Virus record (IMG/VR): IMGVR_UViG_3300021960_010323
Coordinates: 1 to 42,684 of that record
From: a virus
Reading direction: 5' to 3' (one strand)
Length of the DNA stretch: 42,684 bases
Positions 26,738-28,266 of this stretch are shown here, in pieces. How positions within the stretch are numbered: position 1 is the stretch's first letter; each line of letters opens with the position of its first letter. The notes under the pieces were generated by a model, which worked only from the letters and a program-made list of their open reading frames with translations, was not told where the DNA came from and ran no database searches. The translations under genes were made by a program, and so were the position numbers.

Positions 26738-26963
26738 AAATGCGCTCCATAGTCTTTCTATTCAATTCAGCTAACAAACTATAATAAGTATGTTCCCTGT
26801 ATTCTGGAAGAAGTTGACGAGCAATTTGCTCGTTAGCAGCCATAGAGCGTGATATTTCTATCGCTTTACCTACTGCTTTCATGTGACCTATCATCCAAGC
26901 TGCAAACGCAGTAATAAATGATAATTTAAGAAGAGAATAACTTCTTAGTGCTAGTACTGTCAT
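26727..26963 (-). CDS. Small protein with N-terminal hydrophobic helix
   Basis: 78 residues from 26963, which overlaps the Hsp20 stop by 38 bases; internal ATGs at residues 24 and 28 are alternatives. LLKLSFITAFAAWMIGHM suggests a membrane anchor. The C-terminal half is helical and charged. No family recognised. Confidence 0.5.
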   Translation of the reverse strand: MTVLALRSYSLLKLSFITAFAAWMIGHMKAVGKAIEISRSMAANEQIARQLLPEYREHTYYSLLAELNRKTMERIYGK

Positions 26964-27393
26964 TTTTAATCCCCTTTATATGACTATTGATTTGAATTGT
27001 CTGGGGACGCTTCTCTTCAGGTAGGACTACTTCGAGGCCAATCGCAAGTATTCCATCCTTCATTTCAGCTCCTCGTACCTCAGTATATTCTGAGAGACGA
27101 AATGACTTTTTGAACTTCCGAGCAGAGATACCTTTGTGAAGATACTTCTCTTGTTCTCTACGCTGCTCACGTTGAGCAGTTACAGTCAAGATATGATCTT
27201 TCACTTCAATAGTAACATCTTTTTCGGTAAATCCAGCAACGGCTAATTCCACAATATACTGAAATTCGTTTTCACGAACAACATTATGTGGTGGATAAGT
27301 ATCTTTAGCTTGGCTGTGGATTGATTCGAGTTGATCGAAAATACGATCGAACCCAATAAATGCCTGTCTAGGCAATGCATAAGTTCCTGTCAT
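26926..27393 (-). CDS. Hsp20 small heat-shock chaperone
   Basis: 155 residues with the alpha-crystallin domain at about 38-140. YIVELAVAGFTEKDVTIEV, a long loop, RKFKKSFRLSE and MKDGILAIGLEV are typical strands. Small heat-shock proteins are common in cyanophages and other marine T4-like phages, where they may protect folding of virion proteins. A TATAAATA late motif lies 56 bases upstream. Confidence 0.92.
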   Translation of the reverse strand: MTGTYALPRQAFIGFDRIFDQLESIHSQAKDTYPPHNVVRENEFQYIVELAVAGFTEKDVTIEVKDHILTVTAQREQRREQEKYLHKGISARKFKKSFRLSEYTEVRGAEMKDGILAIGLEVVLPEEKRPQTIQINSHIKGIKNDSTSTKKLFSS

Positions 27394-27448: not shown

Positions 27449-27456
27449 TATTTATA
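27449..27456 (-). promoter_or_regulatory. T4-type late promoter motif for hsp20
   Basis: Exact TATAAATA on the minus strand just after the tmRNA terminator and 56 bases before the Hsp20 start, in otherwise gene-free DNA, a sensible place for a late promoter. Confidence 0.6.
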
Positions 27457-27460
27457 ATAG

Positions 27461-27495
27461 AAAAAAAGGATTTTTTCTGTTGCCAGGAAAAACCC
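27461..27495 (-). terminator. Rho-independent terminator of tmRNA
   Basis: On the minus strand, GGTTTTTCCTG-GCAA-CAGAAAAAATCC folds into a stem capped by a GNRA-type GCAA loop and is followed by seven T. Confidence 0.85.
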
Positions 27496-27499
27496 TCTC

Positions 27500-27845
27500 A
27501 AAAAACCCCGCTAGTAGTACTTAACTCTACTAGGCGATTGCTGCAAGAGCCTGAGCAGAAGAAGAAATAGTTTCTTTCTTCACGCTAAGGATTGAAGCGA
27601 AAGTAGACTTGCGTTTTGCAGTTACTTTAAATGTACTTCGATCTACGAATACCTTTACCACGTCTGTCGATCCTATTTCGCCCCCATCATAATTACTTAC
27701 CTAAATATTTCACTCTGCTTTTTTCTTTTTCAGCAAGCCACTTTTCAAACCAATTTTTAATTAATTTAAACATATACAACTCTAAGTAATTATGGTGGAG
27801 GCGGTGGGTACTGCCCCCACGTCCAGCCCGTCTATTCTATACACG
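27500..27845 (-). ncRNA. ssrA: Circularly permuted two-piece tmRNA (alphaproteobacterial type)
   Basis: Reading the minus strand, the acceptor piece comes first and ends CGCCTCCACCA (27793-27803); a 107-base intervening segment follows; the coding piece then starts GGGGGCGAAATAGGATCGAC (mature 5' end 27685). GGGGGCG pairs with CGCCTCC as the acceptor stem, and CCA is encoded. A T-stem GTGGG/CCCAC has the unusual loop GGCAGTA. The coding piece holds a pseudoknot (GTA-TTCG/CGAA-G-TAC; loop TAGAT with ATTTA), 8 bases before the GCA resume codon. The tag frame has 29 codons, begins AKRKSTF and ends ALAAIA before TAG TAG inside a 7-bp hairpin (27511-27533). tmRNA with SmpB rescues stalled ribosomes. 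Confidence 0.92.
27693..27773 (-). CDS. Possible 26-residue ORF inside the tmRNA intervening segment
   Basis: A frame starting MFKLIKNWFEKWLAEKEKSR lies wholly in the segment that would be cut from the tmRNA precursor. It looks like an amphipathic basic helix and has no clear ribosome site. It may be chance. Confidence 0.3.
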   Translation of the reverse strand: MFKLIKNWFEKWLAEKEKSRVKYLGK

Positions 27846-27870
27846 ATCATCACTCTTGTACCTTGTATTT

Positions 27871-27876
27871 ATTATA
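27871..27876 (-). promoter_or_regulatory. Probable -10 box of the tmRNA promoter
   Basis: TATAAT on the minus strand about 26 bases before the acceptor piece; no good -35 is seen. It lies in the upstream region of the divergent plus-strand gene. Confidence 0.45.
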
Positions 27877-27897
27877 GAGCAACATGATAAATATTTT

Positions 27898-28266
27898 ATG
27901 AGAAAGCGAAAAAAAACACCTCCTAAGGTGCATAGAGTATATTGTACATACTTCCCAGATGGTAGATACTATATTGGTTATTCTGGTAAAACAGATAAAC
28001 AATTCGAAAAGTATTTCGGATCCTCGACAATTGTTAAAGAATATGAAGGAAAGTTGGTAAAAGAAACCATCAAAGCATATGATCAAAAATCATATGCTAA
28101 GATGGCTGAATTTTTACTACAATGGCAGCAAAGAGAAGATCCTCTTTGCTTAAATGATATGATCAATATTAGGCTGAGGATGACTCATTTAACAAATTTT
28201 GAACCGTTAAATTGGTATCCAAAATGCCAACAGCAGCTTCAATTTTGTCTTGACGATCAGCAATAG
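27898..28266 (+). CDS. GIY-YIG endonuclease-like protein
   Basis: The only convincing plus-strand gene. 122 residues from ATG 27898; an upstream in-frame start at 27856 overlaps the tmRNA promoter. VYCTYFPDGRYYIGYSGK is the GIY-YIG core, followed by KYFGSSTIV, a probable catalytic Glu in MAEFLLQ and LCLNDMIN, as in phage Seg-type homing nucleases. Orientation opposite to all neighbours and location next to tmRNA suggest a mobile free-standing homing gene. Its last 98 bases overlap the opposite 79-residue gene. Confidence 0.75.
   Translation: MRKRKKTPPKVHRVYCTYFPDGRYYIGYSGKTDKQFEKYFGSSTIVKEYEGKLVKETIKAYDQKSYAKMAEFLLQWQQREDPLCLNDMINIRLRMTHLTNFEPLNWYPKCQQQLQFCLDDQQ

Follow-up and report, generated by a model that had tools for sequence, protein, structure and literature searches.

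The window, by which we mean the whole stretch of DNA analysed, is a 42,684-base IMG/VR virus contig of marine origin and T4-like type, whose phage genes include those for UvsX, a DnaB-like helicase, NrdA and NrdB, a primase, a T4-type DNA polymerase and Hsp20. The polymerase shares no more than about 40% identity with those of cultured cyanophages, so that no close cultured relative is known. On the minus strand the phage almost certainly encodes a two-piece, circularly permuted tmRNA of the alpha type, with its acceptor and coding pieces separated by an intervening sequence (the spacer) that contains a short open reading frame (Table 1).

Table 1 Features of the tmRNA locus and its 3' neighbour
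Feature	Positions	Strand	Basis or remark
Promoter-like box TATAATAAATAC, 5' of the acceptor piece	27865..27876	-	Variant of TATAAATA
Acceptor (tRNA-like 3') piece, 5' end approximate	27793..27855	-	RF01849 and RF04321 alignments
T arm GTGGG-GGCAGTA-CCCAC	27804..27820	-	Covariation, 141 viral sequences
Acceptor-stem strand CGCCTCC	27797-27803	-	Pairs with GGGGGCG at 27685-27679
Encoded ACCA	27793-27796	-	Read from the sequence
Spacer (intervening sequence), 107 nt, removal by processing expected	27686..27792	-	Lies between the encoded CCA and GGGGGCG
Spacer-closing helix, 5' strand TAATTACTT, extending the acceptor stem	27784..27792	-	Register-specific pairing of spacer ends
Spacer-closing helix, 3' strand AAGTAATTA	27690..27698	-	Pairing of spacer ends; predicted precursor fold
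Nested ORF MFKLIKNWFEKWLAEKEKSRVKYLGK then stop, 26 aa, ATG...TAA, family A (YLG/YLSG microprotein)	27693..27773	-	
Coding (mRNA-like) piece, starting GGGGGCGAAATAGGATCGAC	27465..27685	-	3' end from RF01849 alignment
Possible PK1: GTATTCG/CGAAGTAC stem, TAGAT loop pairing with ATTTA	27628..27652	-	Drawn from the sequence
Tag frame AKRKSTFASILSVKKETISSSAQALAAIA then stop, 29 codons, GCA (27619-27617) to TAG (27532-27530)	27530..27619	-	
3' hairpin with conserved loop CCTGGCAACAG at 27487-27477, then T-rich stretch	27465..27496	-	RF01849 consensus 3' end; fold
Hsp20 chaperone gene, 3' neighbour of the tmRNA gene	26926..27393	-	PHROG 432, 1.1e-37; Pfam HSP20, 5.6e-19

Infernal searches match RF01849 (alpha_tmRNA) to minus-strand positions 27903-27465 at 94.5 bits (E 1.3e-24; cut-off 50) in an alignment that spans the whole model (positions 1-355), and RF04321 (tmRNA_permuted) to the same locus at 73.7 bits (cut-off 47). 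Together with covariation in relatives and the phage gene content of the record, these matches uphold the first-pass annotation of the locus, which had proposed a phage-encoded circularly permuted two-piece tmRNA and had named RF01849 among the models to search with. Its outline of the gene likewise stands: the acceptor piece (27855-27793) precedes the spacer (27792-27686) and the coding piece (27685 onward) on the minus strand, the CGCCTCC/GGGGGCG pairing comprises 7 bp, G3-U70 among them, the encoded ACCA occupies 27796-27793, and the GCA resume codon is placed in a conserved context, TAACTGCA (TAAnTGCA). The span it gave, 27500-27845, falls short of the model match at both ends. G3-U70 is the alanine identity pair, and the acceptor stem, as read from the sequence, combines this pair with the encoded CCA as features for alanylation. 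The conserved 3' motif CCUGGCAACAG is also present.

Among 141 nonredundant viral sequences no T-arm pair is broken, with pair 1 occurring as GC (69), CG (43), TA (21) and AT (8) and pair 2 as CG (61), TA (47), GC (20) and AT (13); the test is free at the outer pairs only, because the search expression had set the inner pairs in part. The acceptor stem is set by the search pattern and hence lies outside the covariation test, and the PK1 candidate is invariant in close relatives and hence gives no covariation signal either way. The T loop GGCAGTA had been flagged as an oddity, a view we have dropped: it is the commonest loop in the viral relatives (79 of 141), bacterial alpha-type tmRNAs having GGCGGTA (74 of 82), and is ordinary for a tmRNA of this type. 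ARAGORN did not detect the tmRNA gene of the window, a failure for which the length of the spacer and the unusual tag are presumably responsible. The spacer ORF and the unusual character of the tag, the most interesting features of the locus, were missing from its earlier description.

Genomic context and distribution

Such tmRNAs had been described as rare in phages, which does not agree with the at least 120 IMG/VR matches to a single conserved 20-mer of the coding piece, or with a 2022 study that reported a two-piece tmRNA in the marine phage Melnitz and, in a survey, counted 53 phage tmRNAs of the two-piece kind, of which 50 are from marine or aquatic phages (PMC9004378). The proposed alpha type is correct, but the clue to the host that had been drawn from it is weak, because Melnitz carries an alpha-type tmRNA and has a gammaproteobacterial host, indicating that tmRNA lineage need not match host. 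The loci compared here were recruited by exact patterns in the coding piece, which favour one tmRNA type and under-sample others, and in the second of these patterns part of the spacer end is set as well. The bacterial controls were drawn with the same pattern and from a class-wide model search, the match spans of which are mostly short.

The tmRNA block of the window recurs with its neighbours in four further phage contigs (L203-L206). In some of these relatives unrelated large genes are inserted at the two edges of the shared block, which thus behaves as a module. The inserted genes are adhesin-like, with an MPL(S/A/G)FARS(I/V)LAGG start and NEG.S.TFTL-type repeats, and lie exactly at the block borders in L203, L204 and L206; the corresponding borders in the window, at about 27449-27460 and 27887-27906, look like insertion hot spots. 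Relatives of the Hsp20 protein (85-97% identity) are often encoded without a tmRNA gene nearby, which makes the tmRNA an accessory gene of the lineage. The adjacency of the Hsp20 and tmRNA genes places two protein-quality-control functions side by side in the window; the two genes are not adjacent in L203 and L204, where others lie between them. A divergent ORF (MRKRKKTPPKVHRVYCTYFPDGRYYIGYSGKTDKQFEKYFGSS..., 27856-28266 or, with a later start, 27889-28266, on the plus strand) looks by eye like a GIY-YIG nuclease; a homing endonuclease next to the tmRNA was nevertheless rejected as an assignment, because this ORF is without Pfam or PHROG support. We found no SmpB gene in the record.

The Methylophilales phage Melnitz (MZ577095-98), a cultured isolate, resembles the window in being a marine T4-like phage with a permuted alpha-type tmRNA, and the two acceptor regions are 88.9% identical over 63 nt. 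The Melnitz spacer likewise contains a family-A ORF (MFKWLSKTRLVVITRDYFRERNRKADAKIPKYLSG...), unannotated in its record, which overruns the RNase P site, whereas the ORF of the window ends inside the spacer. The phages also differ in their tags, that of Melnitz being AND-type with 14 aa and that of the window 29 residues long, and in the glutamine riboswitch reported for Melnitz (PMC9004378), for which a search of the window with RF01739 gave no match. Permuted tmRNAs of the alphaproteobacteria (RF01849, RF04321) share the order of the pieces, the acceptor stem, the T arm with GGC(G/A)GTA, helix P2 and CCUGGCAACAG, but have short spacers (median 34 nt) and AND-type tags mostly of 12-13 aa.

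Peptide tag and promoter

The tag encoded in the window (AKRKSTFASIL...ALAAIA) has a basic start and an AIA end and so lacks the AND(N) start and (L/V/I)AA end that are typical of tmRNA tags, although not strictly required. AND-type tags are encoded by 124 of 160 nonredundant viral tmRNAs, and 111 of these 124 end in LAA. Tags of 29 codons like that of the window are found in L084, L085 and L570 (AKKSTTFASILPVKVERVSLVQEALAASA) and in L058 and L569 (GKKPSTFASILPMQVERVSLVEEAMRASA), and the 29-codon tag of L204 is also homologous. Resume codons in this STFASIL...ALAA.A family are GCA, GCT and GGC. In tag frame 0 every pair has more synonymous than non-synonymous change per site, whereas results for the two remaining frames are mixed. 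A tag beginning at the second GCA (ASLLSLQSLA, 10 aa) was considered and rejected, since it is the first GCA that has the conserved TAAnTGCA context and the substitutions favour frame 0. Judged by these comparisons, the window tag is a member of a small conserved tag family distinct from ANDN...LAA. Long tags also occur in another form: L064, L076, L099 and L115 encode AND-type tags of 29 residues (ANDNALSNVTFVDFSAPVTAVNEDFALAA), far beyond the usual length. Conserved 29-residue tags raise the question of whether trans-translation in some phages serves a purpose other than degradation.

The sequence TATAAATA, the core of the T4 late promoter, occupies a fixed site 65-85 nt 5' of the CCA in 101 of 142 nonredundant viral loci, as against 1 of 92 bacterial loci, where its position is different. 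Many viral loci have in addition TTGACA about 25 nt further 5', and bacteria have neither element at these positions. With this arrangement, both host-type and late phage promoters may drive many of the phage tmRNA genes. The box in the window, TATAATAAATAC (27876-27865), departs from the exact TATAAATA, so that a T4-late promoter is only weakly predicted for this copy. The fixed TATAAATA bears on timing, that is, on whether phages would produce tmRNA early, the timing proposed for Melnitz, or late as well.

Spacers and the reading frames within them

Viral spacers have a median length of 86 nt in a first sample and 96.5 nt in the enlarged nonredundant sample, compared with 34 nt in bacteria, and reach at least 100 nt in 77 of 160 viral but 2 of 97 bacterial cases. 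The two spacer ends pair in one register, with 78% Watson-Crick pairs versus 49% (maximum 53%) after shuffling of the 3' ends between sequences (n=105), and pairing falls to about background in adjacent registers. Bacterial spacers have the same closing helix (62% versus 39%). The helix of the window, formed by TAATTACTT and AAGTAATTA, is found in the predicted precursor fold. Pairing of the spacer ends prolongs the acceptor stem, so that the processing sites fall within the stem of a long hairpin and the nested ORF within its loop. The closing helix contains the ribosome-binding site of the spacer ORF in several phages.

We compared the longest ORF with dinucleotide shuffles in 69 nonredundant phage spacers of at least 90 nt. 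The ORF is longer than expected at p<=0.05 in 35 of these spacers and at p<=0.01 in 18. When the ORFs are grouped into families by protein similarity, pN/pS in the families with divergent pairs is 0.30 for B, 0.31 for C, 0.44 for A and 0.35 for D, and 0.37, 0.42, 0.41 and 0.16 for others, with the exception of one family of three sequences at 0.60. Control ORFs in overlapping frames of the same spacers give values mostly of 0.88-1.72; the overlapping-frame pair L445/L453 has 0.42, on very few changes. A Shine-Dalgarno-type motif precedes 42 of the 69 ORF starts versus 34 of 267 other ATGs, a comparison somewhat biased towards the ORFs because starts were picked among in-frame candidates partly by this motif. 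Several spacer ORFs start directly after the CCA (AAGGAG...ATG). The stop codon is within the spacer in 44 of 69 cases, including the window, and the other 25 ORFs overrun the spacer end, 18 stopping at the TAG of GGGGGCGAAATAGG and 7, Melnitz among them, going further.

Several spacer proteins have relatives encoded elsewhere. The family I homologue is an annotated Melnitz gene (QZI94371) just 5' of ssrA, family J (120 aa) is free-standing in hundreds of contigs, and families D and H have homologues at many loci as ordinary genes. Two long spacers, those of L016 (499 nt) and L442 (388 nt), each contain two tandem ORFs, relatives of which stand alone in other spacers or, in the case of the large L016 ORF, as free genes. 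None of the spacer proteins matches a named family in Pfam or PHROGs, and the microprotein of the window has no match there at E<=5. No conserved ORF was seen in the bacterial spacers of our sample, nor a convincing ORF in the few long bacterial spacers inspected. We conclude from these sequence comparisons that phage tmRNA spacers often hold what appear to be true small genes. We found no prior report of protein ORFs in permuted-tmRNA spacers in the open-access literature.

The ORF of the window belongs to family A, which comprises about 30 spacer loci, including Melnitz, and keeps its frame and its (K/R)YL(S/G) motif even where the DNA has diverged strongly. A family-A profile finds 30 spacer loci, matches that are partly circular because the profile was built partly from matched sequences, and 4 others, three of them at E <1e-3. 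Free copies are present directly 5' of the tmRNA in L077 and just 3' of nrdB in L195 and L198, two contigs tied to the window through NrdB. The window ORF itself is modest: 7 of 200 shuffles contain one as long (p about 0.035, TTG start), and its ribosome-binding site is weak (AGAG, not GGAG). Its protein is identical in the close relatives L203, L205 and L206, and the evidence for selection therefore rests on distant members of the family. A tblastn search of phage records with the 26-aa protein, a very short query, gave no match. On the strength of its family membership, we think it probable that the spacer ORF is a real nested small-protein gene. The microprotein is perhaps an amphipathic helix that binds a membrane or a partner.

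Readings of the locus

Processing, alanylation and SmpB-dependent ribosome rescue are established general properties of tmRNA. Against this background the explanation we favour, and regard as probably right as a whole, is a working phage permuted tmRNA whose excised spacer doubles as the site of a nested gene. A single precursor would be transcribed, probably from a phage promoter, and cut by host tRNA enzymes, with RNase P acting at G1 of the coding piece and 3' processing proceeding to the CCA. The two resulting RNAs would stay joined through the acceptor stem and helix P2, and the two-piece tmRNA would be charged with alanine through G3-U70 and A73. Host SmpB and the phage tmRNA would then rescue ribosomes stalled in infection, adding the 29-residue tag to the stalled protein, and the spacer loop with its 26-codon family-A ORF would also serve as a small-protein gene.

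It is unlikely, in our estimate, that the tmRNA is an ordinary permuted one with a non-coding spacer and that the 26-codon ORF is a chance occurrence in an AT-rich stretch. The secure identity of the tmRNA, an ORF only modestly longer than in shuffles and the weak Shine-Dalgarno sequence would all fit such a view, but it does not accommodate the retained frame and motif of family A with its pN/pS of 0.44, the free-standing homologues or the other spacer families, whose coding character is clear, with pN/pS as low as 0.16. The bacterial type of the sequence might suggest instead a fragment of a host tmRNA acquired by mis-assembly or transduction. This we regard as extremely improbable given that the block and its neighbours recur in L203-L206, that most viral copies have a promoter at the phage-type position and that relatives occur in phage isolates; simple bacterial contamination or mis-assembly is ruled out by the four further contigs with the block in the same context.

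The long tag, with its basic start and without the LAA end seen in 111 of 124 AND-type viral tags, also invites a reading in which the tmRNA is decaying or hijacked and acts in SmpB titration or another protein fate, not in normal trans-translation. Phage DS6A offers a precedent: the tag part is missing from its tmRNA, and inhibition of host tmRNA is reported for a molecule like it (PMC4131195). We nonetheless find this reading doubtful: the identity features of the tRNA-like part are all intact, and the tag frame is conserved and has related 29-codon tags, which argues against decay although not against another fate for the tag. More speculatively, phage permuted tmRNAs could be dual genes whose outputs are coupled through the closing helix and RNase P cleavage. 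Translation and precursor processing would then compete, and overrunning ORFs cut by RNase P would yield non-stop messages whose products are self-tagged, by analogy with ArfA. The 25 of 69 spacer ORFs that overrun the spacer are consistent with such a scheme, since cleavage would leave a stop-less message, a tmRNA substrate, as are the ribosome-binding sites located in the closing helix of several phages. The ORF ends within the spacer in the window and the rest of the 44, however, so that the scheme has no direct application here, and the presence of unrelated proteins at the site suggests a permissive location rather than a dedicated circuit. We put coupling forward tentatively, as a somewhat improbable idea.

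The kind of tmRNA is itself already known, and the best reading of what is new is that its spacer is a site for nested small genes in phages. A protein ORF inside the precursor of a structured RNA has a parallel in the S23p ORF of the Coxiella 23S rRNA intervening sequence, but the RNA is a different one, the protein is unrelated, and that report describes a selfish element whose protein is maybe not made (PMC4990558). Extra genetic content in tmRNA genes is also known from intron-form tmRNAs with homing endonuclease ORFs; there, however, the extra content consists of group I introns lying within the T loop or, in one permuted-tmRNA spacer, of a tRNA-Ala gene, and the accessible part of that source makes no mention of protein ORFs in permuted-tmRNA spacers (PMC11915505).

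Spacers of tmRNA have so far been regarded as precursor waste. If many phages keep protein genes in them, conserved phage microproteins have been overlooked as a class; ARAGORN passes over the window tmRNA, and the Melnitz record annotates no spacer gene. If this is true, one transcript must be both message and structured RNA.
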